A DNA stretch of 64,000 nt, from NCBI RefSeq assembly GCF_029633825.1, contig NZ_CP090641.1, positions 1,426,001-1,490,000 of the forward strand. Reading direction: 5' to 3'. Shown in pieces: positions 1 to 16,065 of this stretch. The stretch comes from Burkholderia contaminans. Lineage in GTDB: Bacteria; Pseudomonadota; Gammaproteobacteria; Burkholderiales; Burkholderiaceae. The notes beneath the pieces were generated by a model. That model searched no databases and had not been told where the DNA came from. It saw only the letters and a list, made by a program, of their open reading frames with translations. Position 1 is the stretch's first letter, and each line of letters starts with the position of its first letter. The translations under genes and the position numbers were made by a program.

Positions 1-356
1 AACGGCCCGCTGTCGATCCGGCGCGCAAAGACGATGAATCCGATGGCATAGGCCAGAGCCGCCGGTACCGCGATTGCAAACGGAAGCAGAATGATCTGCC
101 ATTCGCCGCCGGCCGCGGCGGCGGAGCGCAATACGAAGGCGCTGACATACGCGCCCAGCCCGAAGAACAGGCTTTGGCCGAGCGGCAAAAAGCCCGAATT
201 CCCCCAGCACAAAGCAACGCTTTGCGTTGCCATTCCATACAGCAACAGAAGCCCGATCTGGTTTGCGCTGTAGTCACCGGCCCACAGCGGCAAGCTCAGA
301 AGAATCGCCGCCGTGGCAACCTGGAGGGCCGTTTCAACGGCGCGAGACGAGGCCAT
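1..356 (-). CDS. LivM-like ABC permease, 3' end outside window
   Basis: First 118 residues of a hydrophobic permease subunit of the branched-chain amino acid/urea/amide (HAAT) ABC family. It would form the inner-membrane channel with the LivH-like protein encoded just upstream. The frame runs open from ATG at 356 to the window edge and starts MASSRAVETALQVATAAI. It contains the loop GNSGFLPLGQSLFFGLGAY, typical of LivM (N-S/G-x-L-S-L-G-Q/H). The start overlaps the end of the upstream permease gene by 23 bases, so the two are translationally linked. The ATPase subunits, if present, lie outside the window. Confidence 0.85.
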   Translation of the reverse strand, partial: MASSRAVETALQVATAAILLSLPLWAGDYSANQIGLLLLYGMATQSVALCWGNSGFLPLGQSLFFGLGAYVSAFVLRSAAAAGGEWQIILLPFAIAVPAALAYAIGFIVFARRIDSGP

Positions 357-1179
357 TTGGGCGACTCCACAAGAAATAGATGGACAGGATCAGAACAGCG
401 GTATAACCCGACGTCTGATCGATGAAACTCGACACCGCGACCTGCGTTCCGCCTATGACGAACGTGCCTACCGCGAGACCAAGCAAGCTGCCCAGGCCGC
501 CGACGACGAGCACGAAAAACGAATTGAGCAGATAGTCGAGGCCCATGTACGGCTCGACCCGCACGATCGGTGCGAGCAGCACCCCCGCCAATCCGGCCAG
601 GACCACACCCGTGATGAACGTGCCGCTGGCCAGTCGGGTCGTATTGATGCCGGCCGCCTTCGCAAGAAGGGGATTCGCAACCATGCCTCGAATCCGTGCG
701 CCCGTCTGGCTGCGGCTGTACCATGCCGCGAGCCCGGCGAATGCGACGCCCACCGCGAGCATCATCGCAAGCCGGAATGCCGGATACGGGGTGCCCAGCA
801 CGTCGATCGATGCGCCATCCGCACCGGTCACGTCCTGGTAACCCTTTCCGAACAATGCGACCACGCCTTCGCGCAGCAGGATCGAAACGCCCCAGGTCGC
901 GAGCAAGGTATCGAACGGACGCTGATACAAAGGGCGAACCAGCAGGCGCTCGACGATCCACCCGACAACAACGCATACGACGATCGCCAACGGTATGGCA
1001 AGCAAAGCGGGTAACCCGAGACGCTGCACGACGACCACCGAGTACGCGCCCAGCATGATGAACTCGCCATGCGCCATGTTCAGCACGCCCAGCAACCCGA
1101 ACACGATCGCCAGGCCTATCGTCGTGAGCGCGAGGGCCGCACACGCGTAACCGAGATTGAGAAGAGAGGAGAGCAGCAT
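334..1179 (-). CDS. LivH-like ABC permease
   Basis: Inner-membrane permease of 281 residues in the HAAT/LivH family, which imports branched-chain amino acids, urea or short amides. The signature GLLGVLNMAHGEFIMLGAY near residues 25-45 and the C-terminal glycine-rich VVVGGLGSLLG segment are typical of LivH/UrtB. Start chosen at ATG 1179 because it begins MLLSSLLNLGYA and follows the stop of the binding-protein gene by only 4 bases; an in-frame codon 30 bases further upstream lies inside that gene. It overlaps the LivM-like gene by 23 bases. The substrate is inferred from the neighbouring amidase and nitrilase to be an amide, nitrile-derived acid or related aromatic compound. Confidence 0.9.
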   Translation of the reverse strand: MLLSSLLNLGYACAALALTTIGLAIVFGLLGVLNMAHGEFIMLGAYSVVVVQRLGLPALLAIPLAIVVCVVVGWIVERLLVRPLYQRPFDTLLATWGVSILLREGVVALFGKGYQDVTGADGASIDVLGTPYPAFRLAMMLAVGVAFAGLAAWYSRSQTGARIRGMVANPLLAKAAGINTTRLASGTFITGVVLAGLAGVLLAPIVRVEPYMGLDYLLNSFFVLVVGGLGSLLGLAVGTFVIGGTQVAVSSFIDQTSGYTAVLILSIYFLWSRPNGLVSRR

Positions 1180-1183
1180 GACT

Positions 1184-2368
1184 TCAACCCGCACCCGCTC
1201 CGCTCGCACAGGTCTCGGCCGAGCCGAGTTGCGAGAACGTCTTGACGATGTCGTAGCGGACGCCTGATGCCTTCGCGAGGAAGATGTCGGCCGTCACGTT
1301 GCGCGACTTCATCGTGACCACGCCGCGCGGGCCTTTGTAGCTTGCCCCATCGGACGCCTTCGCCAGATCGCCGATCGACACGGCATTCGCCTTCCTGGCC
1401 ATCGCGTCATACATCAGGATGCCTTCGTACGTCGACTCGCCGATGCTGCTCAACACCGCTGAAGCGCCGAACTGCTTGTGATAGCGCTCCAGAAACTGCG
1501 CGGACGTTGCGGTTGACGTCGAGAAAAAGCCGGAAGCAGAGTAGAGGTTCCGAGAGTTGGATGCACCGATGCCGATCAACGTGTTTTCTTCGATCATCGT
1601 GCCGAAACGGATCATCTTGTCGCTGAGGCCGAAGCTCGCGAAACTTCTGTTGAACGTGACGGCTGATCCGCCCACCAGCGTGATGAACACTGCATCCGCC
1701 TTGCTGTCCCGGATCTTGCCGAGTACCGCGTCGAAGTTGTCGACGTCGAACGGCACGTACTCTTCGCCGACCACGGTCGCGCCGGAACCCTGAATCGCCT
1801 TTTTCGCCACTTCGTTCGACTTGTGCGGCCAGATGTAATCGTTGCCGATCAGGAACCAGCGCTTGACCTGGTGTTTGGCGGTGAGCCACGGGATGACCGG
1901 CGTCAGTTGCTGCGCGGGCGTCTCGCCGACGAAGAAGGTCCCCTTCGCGCAATCGCCCCCCTCGTACATCGGCGTGTAGAAGTAAGGCACCTGGCCTCGG
2001 AACAGGCTTTCCAGCGCCGTGCGGACAGCACTGTCGTGCGATCCGACGAAGACCTCCGCCTTGTCGCGCTTCCAGAGACGGAGTGCCGTCTGCGCCGACT
2101 CGGAAGGTGCGGCGCCGGCGTCCCCCACCAGCAACTCGAGCGGGCGCCCCAACACGCCCCCGCGCGCATTGATCTCCTCGATTGCCATCGCCGCGCTGTT
2201 TTTGCAGGCTTGGCCGAAAAATGCGGCCGGCCCGCTCATCGGCGCCATCAGCGCCAACTTCAGCGGCTGGTTTGCCGCGCGGGCCGATACCGGCACGAGC
2301 CCCCCGACGCCCACCGCGGCGCTTGCAGCACCGAGCGCAATACTTTTCAGGATACTTCGACGATTCAT
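1184..2368 (-). CDS. ABC substrate-binding protein, amide/urea type
   Basis: Periplasmic solute-binding protein of 394 residues for the adjacent LivH/LivM permeases. The N-terminus MNRRSILKSIALGAASAA followed by GLVPVSARA looks like a Tat or Sec signal peptide cut after ARA. The mature part has the type-1 periplasmic fold of the LivJ/AmiC/FmdD group: LKLALMAPMSGPAAFFGQ at the start, then INARGGVLGRPLELLVGD. Proteins of this subgroup bind urea or short-chain amides in characterised cases; an aromatic amide or acid ligand is inferred here from the amidase encoded 36 bases upstream. ATG 2368 is preceded by an AAAGG ribosome-binding site. Confidence is high for class, low for ligand. Confidence 0.88.
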   Translation of the reverse strand: MNRRSILKSIALGAASAAVGVGGLVPVSARAANQPLKLALMAPMSGPAAFFGQACKNSAAMAIEEINARGGVLGRPLELLVGDAGAAPSESAQTALRLWKRDKAEVFVGSHDSAVRTALESLFRGQVPYFYTPMYEGGDCAKGTFFVGETPAQQLTPVIPWLTAKHQVKRWFLIGNDYIWPHKSNEVAKKAIQGSGATVVGEEYVPFDVDNFDAVLGKIRDSKADAVFITLVGGSAVTFNRSFASFGLSDKMIRFGTMIEENTLIGIGASNSRNLYSASGFFSTSTATSAQFLERYHKQFGASAVLSSIGESTYEGILMYDAMARKANAVSIGDLAKASDGASYKGPRGVVTMKSRNVTADIFLAKASGVRYDIVKTFSQLGSAETCASGAGAG

Positions 2369-2404
2369 TTGCTTGCCTTTCTCGTTAAGCCGTTGCCGGA
2401 TGGA

Positions 2405-3826
2405 TCAAACGTGTGCGTCGAGACGCGGGAACGTCGCGGCACACAGAACACGCTCCATTTCCTTGCCGATCCGCAGGATTCGCTGATCCGAATGCGGCGC
2501 ACCGTCCAGCGCCAATCCAACCGGGAGCCCATCCTGGGTCAGACCTGCGGGCACGGTGATGCCGGGTACCCCTGCGTTGCTGCCCGGTTCGGTATTGCGT
2601 GTGTACGCGGCAAAAATACCGAGCGACTCAGACCCGACCGCCACGGTTTCAGCGCCGATGCTGCAGGCCGGAATCGGGACGGTGGGAAACAGCAGGGCGT
2701 CCGCGCCCACTTCGCGAAGACATGCCACGTAAGACGTGCGCGACTGCTCTCGCGCGAGAAGCGCTTCGGCATATTCGGTCGCGGAAATCGCACCGGCCCC
2801 CAGGATGTCGCTGACGATCCGGACCACGTCCGGACTCTTGATCTGCGCAACGATCTCCGGGAACGTCACGGCCACGCCCTCTGTTTCCAGGTAGCGGGAC
2901 ACAGCGCCGGCAAACTCGAAAAAAGGGATGGTTGCGCTCTTCTGCGCACGAAAAAACGGATAACGTCGCAGGTCCACGTCGACCAGTTCGAATCCTGCGT
3001 CCTCGAGTTTCTGCAGCGCACGTTCGAGTACAGGCCCGGCATCGGGTGACAGCCCCTCCCACATCGTCGAGTACGGGACCGCCAGCCGAAAGTCGCGTGC
3101 ACCGTCGACAACGGGAAGCGCCGAACCACTTCCCGACAGGATCTCGTCCAGCAACATCACGTCGGAGACGGTGCGGGCAATCGGACCGACCGTGTCGCGC
3201 GTGGGCGATATCGGGACGACGCCCCCGGACGGATAGCGTCCATGAGTGGGGCGAAAGCCGACCAGCCCGCATAGCGCCGCCGGTATTCGCACCGATCCGC
3301 CCGTATCGGTGCCGAGCGCCGCCGGCACCGCCCCGCTCGCCACCAGCACGGCAGATCCACCGCTGCTTCCCCCGGGAATTCTGGACGGGTCATACGGGTT
3401 GCGGGCCGGACCAAAGAATCCGTTGTCGTTGGTGCAGCCGAACGCGAGTTCGTGCATGTTGGCCTTGCCGGCGGCCAACGCACCGGCTTCGATCACGCGT
3501 GCCACGACTGGCGCGTTCGCTCGCGGGACAGCGTGGCGGAGCGCTGCCGTTCCCGCGGCTGTCGGCATGCCCGCGCAGTCGATGTTGTCCTTGATTGCCA
3601 ATGGAATACCGGCAAGCGACAGCCGGCCTGTCCGGGCCTCGAGCGCTTCGTCGTGCGCCCGCGCCCCTTGCAACAGCGCCTCCGGGTTGAAATACACGAA
3701 CCCGTTCAGCGACTCGGTTTTGGCCTGTTGATCCACCAGCGCCTGAACGTATTCCAGGCAGGAAATCTCGCGTCGATCGATCGCGCCTTGTGCGTCGACC
3801 ACTGAAAGCTGCGGCAGGGTTGGCAT
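2405..3826 (-). CDS. Amidase-signature hydrolase (possible mandelamide hydrolase)
   Basis: Cytosolic amidase of 473 residues that hydrolyses an amide to acid and ammonia. The Ser-cisSer-Lys triad is complete: Lys79 in IPLAIKDN, Ser154 in IPGGSSGGSAV and Ser178 in GTDTGGSVRIPA. The spacings of 75 and 24 residues are the same as in fatty-acid amide hydrolase. Amidase-signature enzymes include MdlY, the mandelamide hydrolase found with the mandelate genes of Pseudomonas putida. Here the gene sits with a nitrilase and mdlB/mdlC, so mandelamide or 4-hydroxymandelamide is the best guess. Glu-tRNA amidotransferase GatA is unlikely because no gatB or gatC is nearby. It is followed at 36 bases by the amide-type binding-protein gene. 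Confidence 0.87.
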   Translation of the reverse strand: MPTLPQLSVVDAQGAIDRREISCLEYVQALVDQQAKTESLNGFVYFNPEALLQGARAHDEALEARTGRLSLAGIPLAIKDNIDCAGMPTAAGTAALRHAVPRANAPVVARVIEAGALAAGKANMHELAFGCTNDNGFFGPARNPYDPSRIPGGSSGGSAVLVASGAVPAALGTDTGGSVRIPAALCGLVGFRPTHGRYPSGGVVPISPTRDTVGPIARTVSDVMLLDEILSGSGSALPVVDGARDFRLAVPYSTMWEGLSPDAGPVLERALQKLEDAGFELVDVDLRRYPFFRAQKSATIPFFEFAGAVSRYLETEGVAVTFPEIVAQIKSPDVVRIVSDILGAGAISATEYAEALLAREQSRTSYVACLREVGADALLFPTVPIPACSIGAETVAVGSESLGIFAAYTRNTEPGSNAGVPGITVPAGLTQDGLPVGLALDGAPHSDQRILRIGKEMERVLCAATFPRLDAHV

Positions 3827-3942
3827 CTACGTCTCTCGTGCATGTCGGTCTTCGTAGATTGCGCGCCGGCTTTTTTGTAGCGCATCGTCAGAAATGACGA
3901 CGACGCAGTCAACCCAGGCAGCGTCGCCTCATCGCCTGACGT

Positions 3943-5175
3943 TCAGGCCGCGTCGACGTTCGAGACAGCATGCGTCGACGTCGCGGCGGGAACCGTTTCG
4001 TCGAGAAACATCCCCACGAACGCGCTCACCAACGACACACACCCGACGATCAGCATCGGATAACCCAGACCGAACGTGTCGGCGAGCCCACCTGCCACCA
4101 CCGGCATCAGGACGCCGCCAATGAGTTCACTGACGGCGGTCGGAACGCCCACGGCGGAGCCGGTCAGCGAAGACGGTACGGACTCGCAAGGAATCACGGC
4201 AAGAAAGAGCGGCGCGATGCCGAAGCCGAAAATCCCGGCAGCAAAGAGGTTGGCGAACATCACGACCGGGGAGGCGTGACAAAGCACGAACGCCAACATC
4301 AGGATGCCATAGCAAGTCGCGGAGACGACGAGCACGATACGCCGCCCGAACCGATCCGATATCGCCGGAACAGCGATCATCCCGATAAACCCGCCGAACC
4401 CCCACCCGGAGATGATCAGGCCGACCGTGCCGAGGCTGAGGCCCACCACTTTGGTCAGGTAGAGCGCGACGAACGTCGAGAACACGAACAGGCCCGTCTG
4501 GAAAAGCGATCCGATGACCGTGGTCAACCAGATGTTCTTGTATCTCAGCACGGTCAACGGGCCGCCCGATGCGGACCGGACCTGCTTGTCGCGACCGGCC
4601 TCCGTCTTGCGCATGGTCCTGCCGATGAGGAAGGTCAGCAAAAGCCCCGGAATCCCGAGCACGAAAAACACCCACTCCCAGCGCATGTGCATCACCAGCT
4701 GGGTGGCGATGATCGGCCCGAGGCCGATACCCAGAAGCGGGAAAAACGACTGGTGAATGCCCAGGTTCAGGCCACGCCGGCTCGGCGTCGATATTTCGTC
4801 GATGGTCGCGACACTGGCGCTGAACACTCCGCCCTCGCCCACGCCAAGGAGGCCTCGCACGAGCAGCATGCTGTGGAACGACTTGGCGACGCCAGTAAAG
4901 GAGGTCATCACCGAGAAGAAGATGGACGACCCGAGCAGAATCTTGCGACGCCCATGGCGGTCAGACAGACTCCCGAGCACCCATGTCGAAATGGCCCAGG
5001 TCAGCGCGAGAACCGACGCGATGGCGCCGGCCTGCGTGTTGTTCAGCTTGAGCTCCGGCAGAAGGACCGGAAACAGATACACGATGACCAGACGGTCGAG
5101 ACCCACGATGCCGAACAGCACCGCCAGAAAGATGACCATCTTCCATTCGTAGCTTCTATTTTCCCTGTAATTCAT
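3943..5175 (-). CDS. MFS transporter
   Basis: Twelve-helix major facilitator of 410 residues. The loop between helices 2 and 3 has the MFS motif GSLSDRHGRRKI and its second-half copy PAISDRFGRRIV. The start FLAVLFGIVGLDRLVIVYLFPVLLPEL resembles carboxylate/aromatic-acid carriers. It lies between the nitrilase and amidase genes and probably imports a substrate or exports a product of this pathway; the substrate cannot be read from sequence. ATG 5175 is preceded by AGGA. The ribosome-binding site lies within a short inverted repeat (5178-5196), which may affect translation. Confidence 0.88.
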   Translation of the reverse strand: MNYRENRSYEWKMVIFLAVLFGIVGLDRLVIVYLFPVLLPELKLNNTQAGAIASVLALTWAISTWVLGSLSDRHGRRKILLGSSIFFSVMTSFTGVAKSFHSMLLVRGLLGVGEGGVFSASVATIDEISTPSRRGLNLGIHQSFFPLLGIGLGPIIATQLVMHMRWEWVFFVLGIPGLLLTFLIGRTMRKTEAGRDKQVRSASGGPLTVLRYKNIWLTTVIGSLFQTGLFVFSTFVALYLTKVVGLSLGTVGLIISGWGFGGFIGMIAVPAISDRFGRRIVLVVSATCYGILMLAFVLCHASPVVMFANLFAAGIFGFGIAPLFLAVIPCESVPSSLTGSAVGVPTAVSELIGGVLMPVVAGGLADTFGLGYPMLIVGCVSLVSAFVGMFLDETVPAATSTHAVSNVDAA

Positions 5176-5177
5176 AT

Positions 5178-5196
5178 CGATATCCTAAATATATCG
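5178..5196 (-). promoter_or_regulatory. Inverted repeat covering a ribosome-binding site
   Basis: CGATAT - 7 bases - ATATCG forms a short perfect inverted repeat directly upstream of the MFS start at 5175. On the minus strand the spacer contains the AGGA of the likely ribosome-binding site, so the repeat could act as a hairpin at the translation start or as an operator. Function is inference. Confidence 0.35.
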
Positions 5197-5292
5197 TCGT
5201 GACTGGCTGGCCGTTGTTTCGAGGAAAACTCATCCGGTTTCAATCGAAATCAAGCAAACACTGCTGCGACATGAAAACGTCTGCCCCGGCTC

Positions 5293-5310
5293 GCCATGTG
5301 ATGACATGGC
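5293..5310 (-). terminator. Hairpin after the nitrilase gene
   Basis: GCCATGT - GATG - ACATGGC is a perfect 7-bp stem with a 4-base loop, 17 bases past the nitrilase stop. No T-run follows on the minus strand, so it is either a weak attenuator, an mRNA-stabilising hairpin or an operator for the MFS gene downstream. Confidence 0.35.
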
Positions 5311-5326
5311 AAGCGCGACGGTCCCG

Positions 5327-6379
5327 CTACTGATCTGCTTCGCTTCCCGCAAGCTCGGACAAGCAGCCGTCGTCCGATGATGTCTGATCGTCGGCGGCCG
5401 TCGCTAGCGGCGTTCTGTCGAGAATCTCGGTGACAGGGGGGCGCGGTCGCCGGTCGATCAGCAACCGCAGGACGTCAGGCCGGGAGTAATGCCCCACCGG
5501 ATCGAACACGCACTTCGAAAGCGATTGCAGGCCGAGATCGATGTCGGCGTAGAGCAGGCCTTCCGCGGTTTCGTCGATCTTCTCGAACAGCTCCGCCCCG
5601 TCGGGCCCATAGCCAACGCTATGGCCACCGCCCGCCCGCAACAATTGACGTTTGTCCGCGGTGTCGCAAAGGCTCTCGACCATCTCCTCGGTGACGACGG
5701 TCGAAGGCGCGAGGACGAAGCACCCTCCTTCGACCGCGTAGGTCCGCGAAACCGCGTTGTTCACCTGGTGGCTCAATGCGCTGGCAAATTCATAGAGGGA
5801 AAAGCTCGGCCACGCGGCGACGTGGACCTGTTCGCCTTGCGCATACATGGCGGCTTTGGTCAAAGGTTGCACATGTTCGGCACAGCACAGCGCGCCGAGC
5901 TTTCCCAGCGGGCTGTCGACCACGGTCAAGCCGCTGCCCTCCCCGTCACCGAACACGGTTCGCTCGAGGTGGGTGGGCTTGAGTTTCTGTCGCTTCAGGA
6001 GGGTTTCCCCGTCGGGGCCGATCATCCATTGGGAGATATACAACGAGTGGCCCTTGCGCTCCGAGAGTCCCATCACCACCGTGATTCGGTTTTTCCTCGC
6101 CGCGTCCCTCAGTGCATCGGCTTCCGGGCTATCGTAGCTCAGCGAGTTGTCGAAGTAGCGCTGAACATAGCCTTTGCTCATGTACCAGGCCGGTGTACCG
6201 AGCCAGACGTAGAACGGGTAGCCCGGCAGCCACACTTCGGGGAATGCGATCAGGTCGGCGCCGGCCTGCGCGGCCTCTTCAATCAGGCGTATGGACTTTG
6301 CGATTCCGGCCTGAAGATCGAGGAACGCCGGAGCGGCCTGCACGACAGCCGCTCTGAATTGGGGATGGTTGAGAGCCAA
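5327..6379 (-). CDS. Nitrilase (aliphatic/arylaceto type)
   Basis: Nitrilase-branch carbon-nitrogen hydrolase of 350 residues, converting R-CN to R-COOH and ammonia, often with some amide. The Glu-Lys-Cys triad is visible: Glu48 in AFPEVWLPGYPFYVW, Lys132 in LLKRQKLKPTHLER and Cys165 in GALCCAEHVQPL. Most nitrilases have C-W-E-H at the nucleophile; this one has C-A-E-H. No ATG is available: translation starts at TTG 6379 (MALNHPQF), placed 6 bases after a strong GGAGGAG site. The adjacent AraC-family gene fits the NitR arrangement known for nitrilase operons, and the mandelate genes suggest mandelonitrile-type substrates. Cyanide hydratase is less likely given the context. Confidence 0.9.
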   Translation of the reverse strand: MALNHPQFRAAVVQAAPAFLDLQAGIAKSIRLIEEAAQAGADLIAFPEVWLPGYPFYVWLGTPAWYMSKGYVQRYFDNSLSYDSPEADALRDAARKNRITVVMGLSERKGHSLYISQWMIGPDGETLLKRQKLKPTHLERTVFGDGEGSGLTVVDSPLGKLGALCCAEHVQPLTKAAMYAQGEQVHVAAWPSFSLYEFASALSHQVNNAVSRTYAVEGGCFVLAPSTVVTEEMVESLCDTADKRQLLRAGGGHSVGYGPDGAELFEKIDETAEGLLYADIDLGLQSLSKCVFDPVGHYSRPDVLRLLIDRRPRPPVTEILDRTPLATAADDQTSSDDGCLSELAGSEADQ

Positions 6380-6530
6380 GATACTCCTCCACGACTCGCG
6401 GGACGGGACGCCCGCAACGTTGTAGAGAAAGTGTCCGGGGCCAATATGGCGGACGCTTGACTCTGACAGAACAGGATTTTTACTTATGCTGCCCGCAGGC
6501 TCGATCGCCGTGCAGCCGACTCATGGCGCT

Positions 6531-7490
6531 TCAAACAGCGTCGCGATGCTTCGCCCGGTAGTCGCGCGCAGACATGCCGAAGTGACGTCGAAACGTACGA
6601 CTGAAATGCGATGCATTATTGAAACCCCATGCCATCGCAATATCGGTAATCGAGCGGTTCGCGTACGCGCGTTGCCGGAGCCACTCCCCGCACCCGTTGA
6701 GCCTGGCCGTACAGATGGTCTCGCCGATCGACTCTCCGGCTTCAGCGAACAGTCGGTAGAGGTAACGGCTGGACACCCCCAGTTCATCGGCGATCTGTTC
6801 GGGTCCCAGTTCCGGCTCGTGAATCCGATCCTTGATCAACGCGCGTGCCCGGAGCAGATGCATCTCTTTCACGTTGGATCTGGGCAGCGGAACCGCGTTG
6901 AAATAATCCGCCAACGCCAGCGCGACCAGGTTGGCGGACACATCGCCAAGCCTCTCGCAACCGGTCATGGCGCCTTCGTCCGACGAAAGCGCTCGGTGCA
7001 GCGACGCGACATGGTCCGCGGCGATTCGGCGTATCCCGGTGGCCGCGGGAATCCGCACTGCGGTGTGCTGCCGGCCGCACGGCACCAATTTCTCCAGCGC
7101 CTGCCGGGGAAAGCGGATCGTGTAATGTTGCCCGGAGAAATGCCACACGAAATTGCGCGACGAGTCGAACAGCACCATGTCTGTAGGGCCGACGAACGCC
7201 GTGCGGGCATCCTGCTCGATCGCACCGCGTCCCTCGGTCTGTATCGACACGAGCAGGTAGTCGTCCGCCGTGCGCCGCACGTCGTCCCAGTCATGCGCGG
7301 CGACGTGATCGACCGCCGAGATCCGCGACACACACACACCACCCGTGGTCACGCTGGAAATCTCGCCACGAAACCCCTGATCGGACTCGGTCCTGAAAGC
7401 CATGGGGACGCAACTGGCCCGAACCTGATCGGCCCATGCCAAAAGCCTGTCGTCGCGATGGTAATGATCCGTGGTCGTCACTGTATTCAT
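6531..7490 (-). CDS. AraC/XylS-family regulator, NitR-like position
   Basis: Regulator of 319 residues: an N-terminal AraC-binding-like cupin domain (about residues 30-190, with GPTDMVLFDSSRNFVWHFSG) and a C-terminal pair of helix-turn-helix motifs (about 225-315, with LGVSSRYLYRLFAEAGES and ITDIAMAWGFNNASHFSRTF). Start placed at ATG 7490 (MNTVTTTDHYHRDD); the frame is open further upstream only through a TTG. It lies 83 bases after mdlB and 151 bases before the nitrilase gene. It is probably an activator of the nitrilase gene or of the whole set in response to a nitrile, amide or aromatic acid. Effector is inference. Confidence 0.87.
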   Translation of the reverse strand: MNTVTTTDHYHRDDRLLAWADQVRASCVPMAFRTESDQGFRGEISSVTTGGVCVSRISAVDHVAAHDWDDVRRTADDYLLVSIQTEGRGAIEQDARTAFVGPTDMVLFDSSRNFVWHFSGQHYTIRFPRQALEKLVPCGRQHTAVRIPAATGIRRIAADHVASLHRALSSDEGAMTGCERLGDVSANLVALALADYFNAVPLPRSNVKEMHLLRARALIKDRIHEPELGPEQIADELGVSSRYLYRLFAEAGESIGETICTARLNGCGEWLRQRAYANRSITDIAMAWGFNNASHFSRTFRRHFGMSARDYRAKHRDAV

Positions 7491-7573
7491 GGCACAAGGT
7501 TCCGGCGGCAAATACGCGGGATCGCTATCCCGAACGATTGCGCATCCAGAATCCGCCGTCAATGCGCAGTTGC

Positions 7574-8719
7574 CTATGACAGCCGCTTCGAAATGTAGCT
7601 GCGATCCAGATCACCCACCGAACGACAACCGATGAGCGCGAGCGTCCGGTCTGTTTCCTGCCGGATCATCTCGATGACGTCGCTCACGCCGATTTCCCCT
7701 CTGGCAGCCAGCCCGTACAAGGTGGCGCGCCCCAGCATCACGGCATGTGCCCCCAGCGCAATCGCCTTGACGACATCGGCGCCCGTCCGGATGCCGCTGT
7801 CGAGCACGACCGTCGCTCCCGAGGTGCGCTCGACGATATCCGGCAGCACGTCGGCCGTCGCGGGAAGATCGGCGAGTTGCCTGCCGCCATGGTTCGAAAC
7901 GATGACGCCGTCCGCGCCGAGGTCGACGCACCGCGCGGCATCGTCGGCCGTCAGGATGCCCTTGACGAGGAGTTTGCCCGGCCATTCGTCCCGCAGACGG
8001 CGCAGGTCGTCCCAACTGAAACTCGCATCCATCTGCCGGCGAAGAATCGCGGCCTGGGAGGCCGTGTCCGATGCATCGTCCGTCGCGAAATTCTTCAGCT
8101 CCGGCATGCCGTTCGTCAGATAAGACCAGAGCCAACGCGGGTGCGACAGTCCATCGACGGCCGCACGTGCGCTAGCCTTGAACGGCATGGCAAAGCCGTT
8201 ACGAAGATCGCGGCGGCGAAAGCCGTTGACCGCGACATCGGTGGTGAGGATCAGGGTCGAATAGCGAGCCGAGCGGGCACGATTGACCAGGCTCTTCGCG
8301 AGGTTGCGATGAACGACGTACAGTTGAAACCACAGCTCCCCGTCAGCCCCTTTTGCCACCTCTTCGATGGACATGTTGGAAGCCGTCGATAGCGCAAAGG
8401 GAATACCGGCCTTGCCCGCTGCACGCGCGAGTGCGAGGTCTCCCTTGGGCCAGAATGCGCTATTGAGACCCGTCGGCGCGATCACCAGCGGCAAGGGGAT
8501 ACGCCGGCCCAAAAGCGCCACAGACTGCTCCCGCGTGCTGACGTCCGACAGTCGGCGTGGCAACAACTGCAATCTGTCGAACGCCGAACGGTTATGCCTG
8601 AGTCCCGATTCATCGTCCGCCGCGCCTTCCAGATAGTCGAACACCATTCGCGGCAGCCGCCGCTTGGCTTGGTCACGATAGTCGCTGACGGAGAAAATGC
8701 CGGGAAATCCTGTTGTCAT
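7574..8719 (-). CDS. mdlB: FMN-dependent (S)-mandelate dehydrogenase
   Basis: Member of the FMN-dependent alpha-hydroxyacid dehydrogenase family, 381 residues, oxidising (S)-mandelate to benzoylformate, usually at the membrane with quinone as acceptor. The catalytic His277 and Arg280 lie in IVSNHGGRQLADLP, and the phosphate-binding segment is VLDSGIRTGADVVKA. APTGLNSAFWPKGD and VNGFRRRDLRNGF are close to the Pseudomonas MdlB sequences I remember. L-lactate dehydrogenase and glycolate oxidase are the alternatives; mdlC and the nitrilase nearby favour mandelate. Start placed at ATG 8719 (MTTGFPGIFSVSDYRDQAKR); the frame is open upstream but without family-like sequence. Its product is the substrate of MdlC. 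Confidence 0.87.
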   Translation of the reverse strand: MTTGFPGIFSVSDYRDQAKRRLPRMVFDYLEGAADDESGLRHNRSAFDRLQLLPRRLSDVSTREQSVALLGRRIPLPLVIAPTGLNSAFWPKGDLALARAAGKAGIPFALSTASNMSIEEVAKGADGELWFQLYVVHRNLAKSLVNRARSARYSTLILTTDVAVNGFRRRDLRNGFAMPFKASARAAVDGLSHPRWLWSYLTNGMPELKNFATDDASDTASQAAILRRQMDASFSWDDLRRLRDEWPGKLLVKGILTADDAARCVDLGADGVIVSNHGGRQLADLPATADVLPDIVERTSGATVVLDSGIRTGADVVKAIALGAHAVMLGRATLYGLAARGEIGVSDVIEMIRQETDRTLALIGCRSVGDLDRSYISKRLS

Positions 8720-8844
8720 GATTTGCGTACTGTCAGAGTAAATCGTGATGCGAAATGCATGAGGCACGCTGTAGTCCGGTTGCGCGCGCCTCTCGCGATC
8801 GTTCGAACCGGAAGACGACCGAGCAGCGGCACACACGGCGAAAG

Positions 8845-10131
<1,287 letters not shown>

Positions 10132-11478
10132 TCACGCGCTCTTGATGGGCGGAATATGGCGGCGCACGATCATCAGGCAGATAAAAACCATCGCCATCGC
10201 GCCGCCCAGCATGCCCAGATACGCAGACGCCCCACCCTGCGTGATCACGAAGGCCCCCGCAAATGCGCTGAGAATCGCGCCGAGCCGCCCGAACGCGAGC
10301 GCGGATGCGGTACCGGTCGCGCGAACCTCGGTCGGATAGATGTACGCGCAAAGGGCGTACATCGTCGACTGAACGGCGTTCACGAAGAGGCCGTGCAAGC
10401 CGATTCCGAACACGAGCAACGTCGAGTGGGCAGAGACGTCGAGACCGCGCAGGAAAAGCGCGCTCGCGGATGCCATCAGGCAGCACACGAGCAACGGCCA
10501 GCGTGACCCGAACCGACCGATCGCCACCGCGCAGCCCATCGCGCCGAGTACGCCGCCGAGGTTGTAGGCGGTCAAACCTGAACCCGCCACCGAAGGGCTC
10601 AGGCCCTCGCCTGCAAGCATCGTCGGCAGCCAGCTGAATGCGCTGTAGACCGCGACCAGGTTCATGAAGAAAGCGACCCAGATCGCAAGCGTGTCGCGGC
10701 CTTGATGGTCTGCGAACAGAGCACGAAAGCCTGGACGCTGCCCTGCCTTCTGCTCCTTCTGATCGGCGAACACGGCGTCCGGCTGAATCGAGCGGGACAT
10801 CCGGGTCAGCAGTTGACGCAGTTCATGCCAACGTTCGTGACGGCGGGCAAGATAACGGGGCGATTCCGGCATGACGAAGTACAGCAGGAGCGCCAGAGCG
10901 ACGGGCAGCGTGCCGCCAATGAGAAAGAGTCCCCGCCAGCCATAGTGAGGAAGCACGACGCTCGCGAACAGCCCGGCCAGCATGCCGCCCAGCGGTACGC
11001 AGACGATGGTTGCGGTCACGGCGAGCGTCCGCCGGCGGGCAGGCGTAAATTCCGCCGTCATGGTCGTCGCGCTCGGCAGTGCACCGCCGATACCCAGTCC
11101 CGCGAAGAAGCGCAGGATGGCAATGGTCATGACGTCCGGCGACAATGCGATCGAACTCGTCGCCAGGCCAAATACCAGTACGCTCCCGATGATTGCCCAG
11201 CGCCGACCGAACCTGTCCGCGAACAGCCCCGCGAACGCGCTGCCGATCCCCATGCCGACGAGGCCGGCGGCAACGGCAGGCGCAAATGCGTTGCGCGTGA
11301 TGCCCCATTCCTTGATCAAGCTGGGAATGGCGAACCCGATGAGTTGCCCATCGAATCCATCCATCACGATCGCAAGCGCGGCGAGCAGGACGACCATTCG
11401 CTGGAATGCCGAGAACGGTCCGTCATCGAGGGTGCGGCCGATGTCTACGGTCGGCAGACGCGGATTACGATCGTTCAT
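10132..11478 (-). CDS. Aromatic acid:H+ symporter (AAHS-type MFS)
   Basis: Twelve-helix MFS protein of 448 residues in the aromatic acid:H+ symporter group (PcaK/BenK/MhpT relatives). Helix 1 carries VLLAALAIVMDGFDGQLIGF with the Asp-Gly-Phe-Asp motif needed for transport in PcaK, and loop 2-3 has GLFADRFGRRWAI. It probably takes up mandelate, benzoate or 4-hydroxybenzoate. ATG 11478 overlaps the stop of a 41-codon ORF as ATGA, so its translation is probably coupled. An in-frame extension back to 11904 lies inside the aldehyde dehydrogenase gene and is not credible. Confidence 0.9.
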   Translation of the reverse strand: MNDRNPRLPTVDIGRTLDDGPFSAFQRMVVLLAALAIVMDGFDGQLIGFAIPSLIKEWGITRNAFAPAVAAGLVGMGIGSAFAGLFADRFGRRWAIIGSVLVFGLATSSIALSPDVMTIAILRFFAGLGIGGALPSATTMTAEFTPARRRTLAVTATIVCVPLGGMLAGLFASVVLPHYGWRGLFLIGGTLPVALALLLYFVMPESPRYLARRHERWHELRQLLTRMSRSIQPDAVFADQKEQKAGQRPGFRALFADHQGRDTLAIWVAFFMNLVAVYSAFSWLPTMLAGEGLSPSVAGSGLTAYNLGGVLGAMGCAVAIGRFGSRWPLLVCCLMASASALFLRGLDVSAHSTLLVFGIGLHGLFVNAVQSTMYALCAYIYPTEVRATGTASALAFGRLGAILSAFAGAFVITQGGASAYLGMLGGAMAMVFICLMIVRRHIPPIKSA

Positions 11479-11600
11479 TTCGCTCTCCCGGCCAACCCGA
11501 TGAAGCCTGAATCGCAGTCCTGCATAATCCGTCTTCCAACGTGACGGTCGAACTGGAACCGGGTGCGATCGGGCGAGAACTCGAAATCGACGACAGGCAT
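11475..11600 (-). CDS. 41-codon ORF coupled to the aromatic-acid carrier
   Basis: Small ORF starting MPVVDFEFSPDRTRFQFDRH and ending GLAGRAK, with a strong AAGGAG ribosome-binding site 6-7 bases before its ATG at 11600. Its TGA stop overlaps the ATG of the carrier gene (ATGA). I do not recognise the peptide. It could be a real small protein, a leader controlling translation of the carrier, or the truncated start of a lost gene. The strong site and exact stop-start overlap argue against chance; lack of any recognised homologue keeps confidence moderate. Confidence 0.5.
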   Translation of the reverse strand: MPVVDFEFSPDRTRFQFDRHVGRRIMQDCDSGFIGLAGRAK

Positions 11601-11741
11601 TGCAGTCTCCTTGAGCCGATCGCTCGTCGTTCCAGGAGCGAAGGCGTTTCAACGGTATAGGGTTGTTATTTTGTTTGCGCCGACCATGCGGAAGCCCATC
11701 GCTTCCACGATGAGAAACACGCGCGCTGACCGCCGCAACCA

Positions 11742-13193
11742 TCAGAACGGATAGTGCCGAGGCGTCGTTTGCACGGTGATCCAGCGCAAATCGGTAAATT
11801 CCGCGATTCCGGCCTTGCCGCCGAAATGCCCGAAGCCACTGGACTTCATCCCGCCAAACGGCATTTGCGCCTCGTCGTGAACCGTCGGCCCATTGACGTG
11901 ACAAAGCCCGGACTCGATACGCTTCGCCACCGTCAACGCACGCGCGACGTCACGGCTGAAGACTGCCGCCGACAGACCATATTCGTTGTCGTTTGCACAT
12001 GCGATGGCCTCTTCGTCTCCGTCGACGCGAACGATCGCCTTGACGGGCCCGAACGACTCCTCCCGATAGATATGCATGTCCGCCGTCACGTGATCGAGCA
12101 ACGTGGCGGGCATGAGCGTGGTCTCGGATTTCCCTCCGCATACCAGCGTCGCGCCTTTGGCCAGCGCGTCGTCGATCAGGTCGTTGCATCTCCTGACGGT
12201 CGCCATGTCCACGACGGAGCCGAGCACGGCCGGGCCCTTTCTCGGATCGCCGAGCGGCAGGCTCTTTGCCTTTTCGGCTAGTCGCGCAACAAATTCATCG
12301 GCGATCGCCGCGTCCACGACGATGCGTTCGGTCGACATGCAGATCTGGCCGGAATTGGCGAACGCCCCGAATGCCGCGCCTTGAACGGCAGCGTCGATAT
12401 CGGCATCGTGAAGCACCAGAAACGGCGCCTTTCCACCGAGTTCGAGTACCGAAGGCTTCAGGTATTTCGCGCACTGGGTCGCGACGATGCGGCCGACGCG
12501 GGTCGAGCCCGTAAAGTTCACCCGCCTGACCGCCGACTCGGCAATGATCGCTTCGACGATGTCGCCCGCATTCGCCGGCGCGTTCGTGACGAAGTTCACG
12601 ACGCCGCGCGGTAGTCCGGCATCTTGTAACGCCTCGATGATGAGGCCGTGGGTCGCGGGGCAAATTTCGGAACCTTTGAGCACGACGGTATTGCCGCACG
12701 CCAGCGGCAACGCGATGGCACGTACGCCCAGGATGACGGGCGCGTTCCATGGTGCGATCCCGAGCACGACGCCGGCAGCCTGCCGCACGCCCAGCGCGAG
12801 ACTGCCCGGTACGTCCGATGGAATCACTTCGCCCGAAATCTGCGTGATCATCGCAGCGGCTTCGCGCAACCCGTCGGCTGCAAGCTTGACGTTGAAATCC
12901 GCCCAAAGGCGGGACGCGCCCGTTTCGGCTGCCATGGCCAGCGCGAAAGCGTCGTCCTTCTCTTCGAGCGCATCCGCGGCTCGATTCAGCAATGCGCGTC
13001 GTTCGCCGGGACCCATTGCCGACCATGCGGGAAACGCCGCGGCCGCAGCGTGCACCGCCGCTTGCGCATCGGCGACAGTCGCGGCCGGCGCCGTCGATGC
13101 GACCGTGTCATCGAGCGGGTTACGGCGCTCGAATGTCGCCCCATCGCGAGCCATCGTACGCTCGCCGTTGATCAACATCGATACCTGGTTCAT
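11742..13193 (-). CDS. Aromatic aldehyde dehydrogenase (benzaldehyde/vanillin type)
   Basis: NAD(P)-dependent aldehyde dehydrogenase of 483 residues, here probably oxidising benzaldehyde or 4-hydroxybenzaldehyde to the acid. Catalytic Cys285 is in ANSGQICMSTERIVV, a signature of the salicylaldehyde/vanillin dehydrogenase group. Glu251 is in VLELGGKAPF and Asn150 in GIAPWNAPVILG. It is a different class from the shorter MdlD of Pseudomonas putida, so the same step appears to be filled by a different enzyme type. Start at ATG 13193 (MNQVSMLINGERTM) after a good AGGAGACGG site. It starts 55 bases after the mdlC stop and is very likely in the same transcript. Confidence 0.9.
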   Translation of the reverse strand: MNQVSMLINGERTMARDGATFERRNPLDDTVASTAPAATVADAQAAVHAAAAAFPAWSAMGPGERRALLNRAADALEEKDDAFALAMAAETGASRLWADFNVKLAADGLREAAAMITQISGEVIPSDVPGSLALGVRQAAGVVLGIAPWNAPVILGVRAIALPLACGNTVVLKGSEICPATHGLIIEALQDAGLPRGVVNFVTNAPANAGDIVEAIIAESAVRRVNFTGSTRVGRIVATQCAKYLKPSVLELGGKAPFLVLHDADIDAAVQGAAFGAFANSGQICMSTERIVVDAAIADEFVARLAEKAKSLPLGDPRKGPAVLGSVVDMATVRRCNDLIDDALAKGATLVCGGKSETTLMPATLLDHVTADMHIYREESFGPVKAIVRVDGDEEAIACANDNEYGLSAAVFSRDVARALTVAKRIESGLCHVNGPTVHDEAQMPFGGMKSSGFGHFGGKAGIAEFTDLRWITVQTTPRHYPF

Positions 13194-13248
13194 TACCGTC
13201 TCCTGGAATATTCTTGGAAAGCCAGCCTGTCGAATCACCGACTCACGA

Positions 13249-14838
13249 TCAGGCCACGACGATCTCTACGAGGCATGTTTTGCCCGAGGACAGCGCGTCT
13301 TCCAGCGCGGGCTTCAGCAGCAGCGCGTCGCTCACCCGAACCCCTTTGCAACCCATGCTGTTGGCCAGAGCGACGAAGTCCAACCCCGGGAGGTCGGTGC
13401 CCTGTACCGGATCCGACGCAGAGAAGCCGAATACGGGCGCGAATTCCTGCAACGCTGCGTAGCGTGCGTTGTTCAGGATGACAAATGTGATCGGGAGATC
13501 GAGCTGGACCGCGCTGTAGATGGCTTGCGGCGAATACATCGTCGAGCCGTCACCGATGAGGCCGATCACGCGGCTGCCTGGTTTGCCCAAAGCCACGCCC
13601 ACTGCGGCGGGCATGCCGTAGCCCAGACCGCCGCTTGCCATCGTGTAGAAAGTCTGACTGCGCGTGAACGGCAGGTAACGTTGCATGACGGGGCGCGAAC
13701 TGGGCGCCTCCTCGACCACGATATCCGTTGCGTCGCGAACCTCGGACAGCGTCTGCAACGCATAGGCGACCGACATCACTGCCGTGGGCTCGGCTCGCTC
13801 GACGACCTCGCGCGGCGCCGGCAGAGGCCGGCCTTGCGGTGCGGGACGGGCGAGCAGGTCCGCCAGCCCCAGGCGAATGTTCGCCACCACCGACGTGCCG
13901 ACCGGTGTCCATGCAGCGGTAGCCGGATCGTCGATGAGCTGGTACAACGCCGCGCCATCGGGCACGTGCGGCCCGCTGCCTTCGACGTGATACGTAAAAG
14001 CCGGTGCACCGACGGCGAAGATCAGGTCATGTCCGTTCAGAATCCCAACGATTTTTTCGCGCATCGCCGGAAGGAATCCGGCGAAAAGCCGATGATCTTC
14101 AGGGAAGCTGCAGCGCGACGACATCGGCGCAACATAAACCCGCGCATTGTGGCGCTCGGCCAGCTGGATTGCCTCGCTCCAGGCATCGGCACGATCGAGT
14201 TCCGCGCCGACGACGATGGCCGGCCGCTTGCAGTTGTCCAGCGCGTCACCGATCTCTGCGATCCGTACAGGATCGGCGCGGAACCGCGTGCTGACGCGCG
14301 TCACCTCGACGAAATCGGCCGGCTGGTCCCAGTCGTCGACCGGAATGGAAACGAACACCGGGCCACGCGGCTCCTGCATCGCTACGTGGTAAGCACGGGC
14401 GAGCGCCAGCGGAACATCCGCGGCACGAGCCGGTTCGATGCTCCACTTCACATAGGGCCGCGGCAGCTCGGTTGCTTGCGATGCCGACAGAAACGGATCG
14501 AACGGCAGAATCGAACGGGCCTGCTGGCCGGCCGTGATGATCAGAGGCGTCCGGTTCTTGAAGGCCGTGAAGATGTTGCCCATCGCGTTGCCGACACCGG
14601 CCGCCGAATGCAGGTTGACCAGGGCGGCATTGCCGGTTGCTTGGGCATAACCGTCCGCCATACCGACCACCACCGCCTCCTGCAACCCGAGCACGTACCG
14701 GAAGTCCGCCGGGAAGTCACGGAACATGGGTAGCTCGGTCGAGCCGGGATTGGCAAACACGGACGTCATCCCGAGGCGCCGCATCAAGTCCACGACGGCA
14801 TCGCGAACGGTCGGCTGCCCACTTGTGTTTCGTTGCAT
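13249..14838 (-). CDS. mdlC: Benzoylformate decarboxylase
   Basis: Thiamine-diphosphate enzyme of 529 residues that turns benzoylformate into benzaldehyde and CO2. It aligns by eye along the whole length with Pseudomonas putida MdlC: Ser33 in NPGSTELP, Glu54 in GLQEAVVVG, His77 in NLHSAAG and His284 in APAFTYHVEG match its catalytic Ser26, Glu47, His70 and His281. The cofactor-binding GDGSTMYS...ILNN motif is near residues 430-460. Start at ATG 14838 with AGAGGA upstream; an in-frame GTG at 14862 is less likely. It is the first gene of the minus-strand run, facing the LysR gene across 312 bases. Confidence 0.93.
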   Translation of the reverse strand: MQRNTSGQPTVRDAVVDLMRRLGMTSVFANPGSTELPMFRDFPADFRYVLGLQEAVVVGMADGYAQATGNAALVNLHSAAGVGNAMGNIFTAFKNRTPLIITAGQQARSILPFDPFLSASQATELPRPYVKWSIEPARAADVPLALARAYHVAMQEPRGPVFVSIPVDDWDQPADFVEVTRVSTRFRADPVRIAEIGDALDNCKRPAIVVGAELDRADAWSEAIQLAERHNARVYVAPMSSRCSFPEDHRLFAGFLPAMREKIVGILNGHDLIFAVGAPAFTYHVEGSGPHVPDGAALYQLIDDPATAAWTPVGTSVVANIRLGLADLLARPAPQGRPLPAPREVVERAEPTAVMSVAYALQTLSEVRDATDIVVEEAPSSRPVMQRYLPFTRSQTFYTMASGGLGYGMPAAVGVALGKPGSRVIGLIGDGSTMYSPQAIYSAVQLDLPITFVILNNARYAALQEFAPVFGFSASDPVQGTDLPGLDFVALANSMGCKGVRVSDALLLKPALEDALSSGKTCLVEIVVA

Positions 14839-15150: not shown

Positions 15151-16065
15151 ATGAGTTTCAATCTGCAGCAGTTGACGATGTTCACCACGATCGTCTCCGC
15201 GGGTAGCCTGGGACGAGCAGCGACCATGCTGAACATGACCCAGCCGGCGCTGAGCAGATCGATCAAACGACTCGAGGAGTCCGTAGGGGCGCCGCTTTTC
15301 GAGCGTCACACCAAAGGGATGCAGCTGACCGCGCTGGGCGAAGCATTGATGCCACATGCAATGTCGCTGCAAAGGGAGGCCGAACAGGCGCGCGAGGAAC
15401 TGGACGCGATGCGCGGCCTGGCGAAAGGCGTGATCAAGGTTGGCGCGGTGGGCAGCATCGCGAGCCTCGTGTTACCGATGGCGATCACGTGTGTCCTCGA
15501 AAAATGGCCAAATCTGCGTGTGGAGGTGATCGAAGGCGTCTGGGATCGTCTCGTCGAGGGCTTGCTTGCTTACGAAATCGATCTGGCGCTTTGCACATCT
15601 GGAATCGAAACCGAGGATGTCGCCGCGATCTCCGATTGTTCATGGGCCGACAGGAGTTTCGTGGTCGCCGCGACCGATCATCCGTTGCGCTCGAAGTTCG
15701 GTCTTCGACTCGATGACACATTGACACAACGATGGGCACTCACACCCAAGGGAACCGGCCCCTATGCCCACATGCAGGAAACCTTCAGAGCCCACGGTCT
15801 CCCAATGCCAGTCATCGCGGTCGAGACTCGTTCTGTAACCGTGCTCAAAAGCCTGGTAGCGCGATGTGGCTTTGTCTCATGGATGGCAGAACCCATGTAC
15901 GACACTGAAAGCAAGGCTGGCGTCATCGACGCTCTCGATATTGACGGCCTGGATGCGCAGCGCACTTTAACGGCGTTTCGGCGCCGGCGAGGCACGCTAC
16001 CCACGCCTGCCGTCAAACTGCTGGACGAACTACGTCGCCTGACAGGAACTTTGCGCAAAGAATGA
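15151..16065 (+). CDS. LysR-family regulator, likely of the mandelate cluster
   Basis: LysR-type regulator of 304 residues: a winged helix-turn-helix at residues 1-60 (LQQLTMFTTIVSAGSLGRAATMLN, then TQPALSRSIKRLEESVG), a linker helix, and an effector-binding domain from about residue 90. It is divergent from mdlC with no other gene nearby, so it most likely senses mandelate, benzoylformate or a benzoate-type effector and controls the minus-strand genes. ATG 15151 has only a weak ribosome-binding site. Target and effector are inference from position. Confidence 0.88.
   Translation: MSFNLQQLTMFTTIVSAGSLGRAATMLNMTQPALSRSIKRLEESVGAPLFERHTKGMQLTALGEALMPHAMSLQREAEQAREELDAMRGLAKGVIKVGAVGSIASLVLPMAITCVLEKWPNLRVEVIEGVWDRLVEGLLAYEIDLALCTSGIETEDVAAISDCSWADRSFVVAATDHPLRSKFGLRLDDTLTQRWALTPKGTGPYAHMQETFRAHGLPMPVIAVETRSVTVLKSLVARCGFVSWMAEPMYDTESKAGVIDALDIDGLDAQRTLTAFRRRRGTLPTPAVKLLDELRRLTGTLRKE

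Follow-up and report, generated by a model that had tools for sequence, protein, structure and literature searches.

A predicted cyanohydrin-degradation cluster of Burkholderia contaminans and the possible matching of its nitrilase, dehydrogenase and amidase to one substrate hand

What does a nitrilase do in the midst of genes for mandelate degradation, and which hand of its substrate does such a cluster serve? A 64,000-nucleotide stretch of the Burkholderia contaminans genome, hereafter the window (contig NZ_CP090641.1, positions 1,426,001 to 1,490,000; G000:C2:1426001-1490000 in our numbering, with genome G000 comprising 9.44 Mb in 7 contigs), raises this question with a set of genes at positions 1184-14838, which a preliminary description made from the letters alone had read as a complete route from nitrile and amide through mandelate to benzoate. 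We consider it probable that these genes form a peripheral catabolic cluster acting on (S)-mandelonitrile and (S)-4-hydroxymandelonitrile, the aglycones of plant cyanogenic glucosides. Comparison of related clusters further suggests that the residue after the catalytic cysteine of the nitrilase, the type of mandelate dehydrogenase and the amidase may change together, as if matched to one substrate hand. The combination of nitrilase, amidase and mandelate genes is already known and not new as such; what may be new is a candidate rule matching the Ala or Trp residue with dehydrogenase and amidase.

Gene content and predicted pathway

All genes of the earlier list proved to be present and collinear on the minus strand, and each is intact, its frame running unbroken from start to stop codon. 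Read from right to left, the order is mdlC, aldehyde dehydrogenase, MFS2, pobA, mdlB, AraC, nitrilase, MFS1, amidase, ABC binding protein and permease, with gaps of at most 263 bp between neighbours as calculated from the coordinates. Beyond that list, there are genes for an AraC regulator (6531-7562), the transporter MFS1 (3943-5175) and a divergent LysR regulator (15151-16065). The features are as follows, in window positions:

334..1209, minus: ATP-binding cassette (ABC) transporter permease, UrtB/LivH-like (PF02653 116 bits; NCBIfam UrtB 215.8 bits, below its cut-off of 250.3)
1184..2368, minus: ABC substrate-binding protein, amide/urea-type (PF13458 271 bits; PF13433 213 bits; UrtA 215 bits, far below its cut-off of 492.75)
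2405..3826, minus: amidase-signature hydrolase, proposed substrate mandelamide (PF01425 343 bits; NCBIfam indoleacetamide hydrolase equivalog 573 bits, above its cut-off of 532)
3943..5175, minus: major facilitator superfamily (MFS) transporter, MFS1 (PF07690 180.6 bits)
5327..6379, minus: arylacetonitrilase-like nitrilase with Ala167 after catalytic Cys166 (PF00795 186 bits; 6zby NitA 388.6 bits)
6531..7562, minus: AraC family regulator, FeaR-like (PF14525, PF12833; FeaR model 183 bits, below its cut-off of 199); the listed start is TTG, with an ATG further in
7574..8719, minus: mdlB, (S)-mandelate dehydrogenase-like (PF01070 443.7 bits; 6bfg 471 bits)
8845..10017, minus: pobA, 4-hydroxybenzoate 3-monooxygenase-like (NF006091 611 bits, above 351; TIGR02360 524.9 bits, below 538.7)
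10132..11478, minus: MFS transporter of the aromatic acid/H+ symport type, MFS2 (TIGR00895 327.7 bits, below its cut-off of 418.55)
11742..13193, minus: aldehyde dehydrogenase, proposed substrates benzaldehydes (PF00171 Aldedh 487 bits)
13249..14838, minus: mdlC, benzoylformate decarboxylase (NF005485 846.5 bits, above 493; benzoylformate decarboxylase structures 447 bits)
15151..16065, plus: LysR family regulator, divergent from mdlC (PF00126, PF03466)

The Glu-Lys-Cys triad of the nitrilase was confirmed by alignment with the chain of PDB 6zby (57% identity over 314 aligned residues), in which Glu48, Lys130 and Cys164 correspond to Glu48, Lys132 and Cys166. We take 6zby to be the enzyme of Pseudomonas fluorescens EBC191, because its numbering gives Thr110, Cys163, Ala165 and Trp188 as named in PMC6930498. 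The window nitrilase carries Ala167 next to the catalytic Cys and Trp190 at the place of Trp188; it keeps the Cys pair, Ala, Trp and His296 of EBC191, and Ser replaces Thr110. For EBC191, PMC6930498 reports that Ala165 governs amide formation and (R)-selectivity, a bulky replacement giving an (R)-selective enzyme with little amide. The wild type is reported there to convert racemic mandelonitrile to 16% amide with 84% enantiomeric excess (ee) of (S) and to acid with 31% ee of (R), and (S)-mandelonitrile to (S)-amide and (S)-acid in similar amounts. Judged by its residues, the window nitrilase would work like the EBC191 enzyme, yet it falls outside the EBC191 clade. A Nit1C/Nit6803 identity was ruled out (TIGR04048 228.9 bits, cut-off 502.6), and no Nit1C was found elsewhere in the window genome, where none of the six other CN-hydrolase loci exceeds 34% identity to a Nit1C nitrilase.

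The assignments of mdlB and mdlC held as well. MdlB has an (S)-mandelate dehydrogenase as its top solved relative (471 bits; differently named entries at most 327 bits) and is identical to it at 11 of 11 checked active-site positions; MdlC passes the benzoylformate decarboxylase model NF005485 (846.5 bits vs 493), and its top solved relatives are benzoylformate decarboxylases (447 bits). For PobA, 14 of 14 checked PHBH positions are identical and the subfamily model NF006091 is passed (611 vs 351), whereas the equivalog TIGR02360 is narrowly missed (524.9 vs 538.7). The functional roles of these 11 and 14 positions are those that we presume for them. Membership of the aldehyde dehydrogenase in its family stood (Aldedh 487 bits), but none of the 25 best NCBIfam models shown (45 matched) exceeds its own cut-off, and its aromatic substrate is therefore proposed from gene position alone. 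The amidase exceeds the indoleacetamide hydrolase equivalog cut-off (573 vs 532 bits), and some of its relatives carry the source names mandelamide amidase or mandelamide hydrolase; the elements of what we take to be the amidase signature are legible in its translation. The ABC binding protein would be no urea binder by the UrtA model (215 bits vs 492.75).

In the predicted pathway, the nitrilase would convert the cyanohydrin to mandelate and ammonia, and the small Ala instead of Trp after the catalytic Cys would allow the (S)-enantiomer to be accepted as well, part of it being released as (S)-mandelamide, which the amidase would hydrolyse to mandelate. The (S)-specific MdlB would oxidize mandelate to benzoylformate, MdlC would decarboxylate the latter to benzaldehyde, and the aldehyde dehydrogenase would yield benzoate, or 4-hydroxybenzoate from a 4-hydroxy substrate, which PobA would turn into protocatechuate. 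Each of these catalytic steps and substrates, like transport and induction, is a prediction; the route and its 4-hydroxy branch are supported by protein families, active-site positions, synteny and the precedent described in PMC8955678. The word complete goes too far, as no β-glucosidase turned up among the selected open reading frames scanned at about 0-20 kb, and ring cleavage genes were not searched.

The cluster order recurs, with some genes absent in some, in Burkholderia seminalis, Paraburkholderia sp. LEh10, Paraburkholderia sacchari, P. heleia, genomes G141 and G377 and a B. anthina plasmid; from this recurrence in several species, we conclude that the arrangement is not due to chance. 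MFS1 is kept next to the nitrilase in loci L009-L012, L018, L020 and L077, and LysR keeps its position in L009-L012, L018, L020, L023, L077 and L101-L104. An explanation of pobA as a recent insertion unique to the window was ruled out, with pobA occupying the same slot in L018, L020, L077 and L104. B. seminalis L009 lacks pobA, yet a remnant of the pobA-mdlB spacer persists there; at L009:7563-8802, the mdlB match is split across two frames at residue 362, which is real or an assembly error. Antisense pobA fragments of 50-72 residues lie between the AraC and nitrilase genes of three Paraburkholderia (L010:9773-9922, L011:9656-9859, L012:9639-9857), a further short pobA piece lies close to the LysR gene of L102, and a second pobA relative (59% identity) is located on the same replicon of the window genome (G000:C2:1792221-1793387).

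Nitrilase residue and neighbouring genes

To what extent does the residue after the catalytic Cys go along with the surrounding genes? We used the window nitrilase as query (E ≤ 1e-60) against overlapping genome sets, counting G000 where drawn. Matches occurred in 19 of 398 genomes at the family level, 6/399 (order), 4/369 (class) and 11/398 (phylum), and among single genera in 9 of 65 genomes of the window's own, 12/127 of that of G177, 2/58 of that of G124 and 78/98 of that of G792, taken as Bradyrhizobium, in which most of the 23 loci read adjoin an aldoxime dehydratase. Further sources were genome contigs (9 loci) and plasmids (546 records, 40 listed, 12 opened at first). Short pieces in G641 and G1612 and 60 of the 79 places in the genus of G792 were left out, and we dropped from the counts L019, L021, L022 and L070 as duplicates of L009-L012, and L014, L016, L052, L053 and L076, for which the Nit6803 query was the best match. 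L105, L108 and L109, the last being the same place as L087 read further, were found later and stand outside the resulting 72 loci.

Ala follows the catalytic Cys in 16 of these loci, Trp in 55 and Gly in one, L050. Within a neighbourhood of 10.5 kb (stretches at contig ends are shorter, and absences there uncertain), mdlB was found near 10 of the 16 Ala nitrilases but none of the 55 Trp nitrilases, and the amidase near 7/16 vs 0/55. The reverse holds for aldoxime dehydratase, present near 24 of the 55 Trp nitrilases and no Ala nitrilase. An mdlC-like gene accompanied 10/16 Ala vs 2/55 Trp nitrilases, pobA 7/16 (three of the seven being fragments) vs 0/55, and a racemase-like gene 3/16 (one just 30% identical) vs 0/55, whereas a ketopantoate-reductase-family (KPR) gene accompanied 0/16 vs 3/55, L047 among the latter being just 27% identical. 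Mandelate genes among the Trp loci were restricted to L023 and, weakly, L088. Five of the six Ala loci without a nearby mdlB have mdlB and a racemase elsewhere, namely on the same contig (L029), another contig (L035, L036, L075) or the same plasmid (L082); the sixth, L067, was outside this genome-wide look-up. Fisher p values for these associations ignore kinship and were not used as evidence.

In a tree built with the post-Cys residue masked and L015 and L017 left out, the Ala nitrilases are those of two clades with 8 rows each, one containing the window nitrilase and the other that of EBC191, and in addition L067. Constraining the window and EBC191 Ala groups to one clade was rejected (approximately unbiased test, p-AU 0.0154; L067 was left out of this test, as decided after the tree was seen). 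The sister of the window clade is L023, a Trp nitrilase (support 87/95, not full), and mdlB and the amidase occur in both Ala clades.

Both kinds of locus have known counterparts. According to the review PMC8955678, the nitrilase gene of P. fluorescens EBC191 lies near genes of the mandelate pathway and one for a putative indoleacetamide hydrolase, no oxd was found, and the gene set is thought to permit the use of plant-released mandelonitrile; a Bradyrhizobium nitrilase was found via the mandelonitrile pathway in its flanking genes (cited in PMC3599355). Because of these precedents, the combination noted in the preliminary description adds one more example of a type already known. As presented in PMC8955678 and PMC6930498, the EBC191 locus shares with the window Ala after the Cys, mandelate genes, a putative indoleacetamide hydrolase and the lack of aldoxime dehydratase. 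It differs in that the nitrilases are 57% identical and belong to separate Ala clades, and that the window adds pobA, two MFS transporters and the ABC transporter. The aldoxime-nitrile clusters share with the window a related nitrilase adjoining an AraC regulator, but have Trp after the Cys and, in the 24 cases counted above, an aldoxime dehydratase. The mdl operon of Pseudomonas putida comprises MdlB, MdlC, benzaldehyde dehydrogenase, the mandelamide hydrolase MdlY and mandelate racemase, and is not known to include a nitrilase. In the open-access literature, no title or abstract was found to state the association of Ala or Trp with dehydrogenase and amidase, subscription papers being mostly outside this search.

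Related clusters point to how such a match could have arisen. L023 consists of LysR, mdlC, aldehyde dehydrogenase, KPR, MFS2 and AraC genes with a Trp nitrilase on the opposite strand, and lacks mdlB and amidase. Its KPR protein (PF02558, ApbA/PanE, 136.9 bits) matches structures that are all labelled 2-dehydropantoate 2-reductase, the best being 8wl1 (167 bits); among them, at 137.8 bits, is 3wfi, which we take to be the Enterococcus D-mandelate dehydrogenase. A D-mandelate dehydrogenase of the KPR family has been described in Enterococcus faecalis (PMC4230899). Relaxed tblastn searches revealed no KPR relic in the window cluster and no mdlB relic in L023. Loci L101-L104, on Paraburkholderia and Caballeronia plasmids, hold LysR, mdlC, aldehyde dehydrogenase, KPR, MFS2 and mdlB in this order. 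They share with the window the order of these genes except KPR, which stands between aldehyde dehydrogenase and MFS2, and in L104, pobA (82%) occupies the slot that it has in the window; within the 24 kb read, these loci contain neither a nitrilase of this kind nor an amidase. Three Novosphingobium plasmid loci combine a Trp nitrilase with KPR (39-46%) and aldehyde dehydrogenase (58-60%) genes without mdlB or amidase. These are weaker cases, the thiamine enzyme being of another family in L088, matching mdlC at 24% in L109 and missing in L108, and the L088 nitrilase gene contains an internal stop. In L034, L074 and L105, the nitrilase adjoins mdlC and mdlB in another arrangement. The simplest reading is that both dehydrogenases were present in an ancestral mandelate cluster, and that the one suiting the product of the nitrilase was retained when cluster and nitrilase came together. 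The order of the dehydrogenase losses is left unsettled by the backbone tree, which is poorly resolved and has a too distant outgroup.

L105 (Rhizobium rhizogenes K84 plasmid pAtK84c, 155-178 kb) has mdlC, mdlB and a racemase beside two more nitrilases, one of the Ala type, and also catA, muconolactone isomerase and a cytochrome bd-type oxidase; it is perhaps a cyanohydrin island with a cyanide-tolerant oxidase.

Substrate hand and competing explanations

The sole mandelate dehydrogenase of the window cluster is of the (S)-specific MdlB type. Mandelate racemase relatives were sought in 14 genomes (E ≤ 1e-30) with the L034 gene, which scores 494.6 bits to the solved mandelate racemase: none was found in the window genome G000, nor in G141, G181, G063 and G177, and G377, G055 and G1608 had only relatives of 29-35% identity. 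In contrast, all six searched genomes of the EBC191-type Ala clade possess relatives of 64-100% identity. Given the MdlB type, the lack of KPR in the cluster and the lack of a detected racemase in the genome, the window would be expected to use the (S)-side, and PobA suggests a 4-hydroxy substrate.

The preliminary description had named prunasin, amygdalin and dhurrin as plant sources. Amygdalin is an (R)-glycoside. The (S)-configuration is reported for dhurrin and sambunigrin, the (R)-configuration for prunasin and taxiphyllin (PMC12350405; for dhurrin also PMC11359004). On balance, a pathway for (S)-cyanohydrins, the 4-hydroxy form among them, is the best interpretation of the locus, and dhurrin or sambunigrin would suit it better than prunasin; without racemization of the cyanohydrin, prunasin and amygdalin are poorer candidates. 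A conjugative plasmid of B. anthina SO82, isolated from Sorghum bicolor rhizosphere and root exudates, matched the 13,679 bp cluster query over its whole length at 92.1% identity, being the only one of nine matching plasmid records to cover most of it.

Upstream of the cluster, the B. anthina plasmid encodes a second MdlB-like alpha-hydroxy-acid oxidizing protein (L077:6797-7903; 54% over half its length), close to two alpha/beta hydrolases. The same plasmid carries within about 15 kb of the cluster a nit1C-type set (L077:34564-41050; Nit6803 nitrilase, radical SAM, acetyltransferase and others as annotated), and a Nit6803-type nitrilase gene lies about 8 kb from the cluster in L018 (L018:17609). 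As nit1C has been linked to cyanide assimilation (PMC11049912), use of the released cyanide is possible in these two cases.

Taking these lines together, we tentatively propose, at a confidence short of probable, that cyanohydrin pathways are sorted by hand: Ala, (S)-MdlB and amidase on one side and Trp and (R)-KPR without amidase on the other would be co-inherited and derive from dual-dehydrogenase clusters, with the window representing an (S), 4-hydroxy, plasmid-mobile version tuned to the dhurrin of sorghum and its kin. Several points weigh against this proposal. Two or three independent changes underlie the pattern, which puts a significance test out of reach; taken alone, the fully supported branches are compatible with a single origin of Ala, and an independent-pairs test of Ala against mdlB or amidase was powerless with one supported pair. 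The genome-wide mdlB search covered Ala genomes only, so that distant mdlB has no Trp control. L010-L012 have Ala and mdlB without an amidase in the stretch read, the amidase match in L018 is partial (residues 4-293 only), and B. seminalis L009 lacks pobA and has a split mdlB match. Moreover, EBC191 with its Ala still leaves a slight (R)-acid excess (31% ee; PMC6930498), and by analogy Ala would permit rather than prefer (S). The Bradyrhizobium nitrilase bll6402 was reported with no or slight enantioselectivity (PMC3599355), and Trp is found in 22 of the 23 loci read from the genus of G792, so that Trp is no guarantee of (R)-selectivity. Finally, a single plasmid record is thin support for the sorghum link.

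The cluster might instead serve mandelonitrile of either hand, including the (R)-form from prunasin and amygdalin, if this racemized via benzaldehyde and hydrogen cyanide and MdlB drew off the (S)-acid. The Ala-type EBC191 nitrilase converts both mandelonitrile enantiomers (PMC6930498), decomposition of mandelonitrile to benzaldehyde and hydrogen cyanide, said to occur at pH ≥ 7 (PMC3599355), would allow racemization, which also counts against sorting by hand, and benzaldehyde could enter directly at the aldehyde dehydrogenase. However, (R)-mandelate would be a dead end, with KPR missing from the cluster and the racemase search negative in the window genome but positive in all six searched genomes with EBC191-type Ala nitrilases; we regard this explanation as unlikely. 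It is also doubtful, though somewhat less so, that amidase and ABC transporter form a general amide-scavenging module for indoleacetamide, phenylacetamide or other amides rather than a partner of the nitrilase. The two are linked in two differently built clusters, the window type and L034, a 53% identical amidase relative in L106 stands without a nitrilase or this ABC transporter, L010-L012 do without the amidase, and its best family name is indoleacetamide hydrolase; yet an amidase of this type accompanies 7 of the 16 Ala and none of the 55 Trp nitrilases within the 10.5 kb, and the amide-forming nitrilase of EBC191, too, has a gene for a putative indoleacetamide hydrolase next to it (PMC8955678).

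That nitrilase and amidase make auxin via indole-3-acetonitrile and indole-3-acetamide, or use phenylacetonitrile, next to accidental mandelate neighbours, appears improbable. Although the family name of the amidase would fit and arylacetonitrilases, including that of EBC191, also act on phenylacetonitrile and indole-3-acetonitrile (PMC8955678), the nitrilase stands in the same mandelate backbone in several species and, otherwise arranged, beside mdlC and mdlB in L034, L074 and L105, and none of the 16 Ala nitrilases has in its vicinity an aldoxime dehydratase, which marks the aldoxime-nitrile route.

Transporter surroundings and biological meaning

To the left of the window, the ABC genes continue with a permease/ATPase fusion and an ATPase, followed by a porin gene. 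A porin gene was located downstream of the transporters in all four loci inspected (L008:10560-11618, L010:12532-13605, L023:10397-11455, L077:29760-30818).

If pathways are indeed sorted by substrate hand, there would be a natural reason for the amide by-product that is seen as a nuisance in biocatalysis, since a paired amidase can recover the amide. One residue and one neighbouring gene would then predict an (S) or (R) pathway, and root bacteria may consume dhurrin-type cyanohydrins around a crop.

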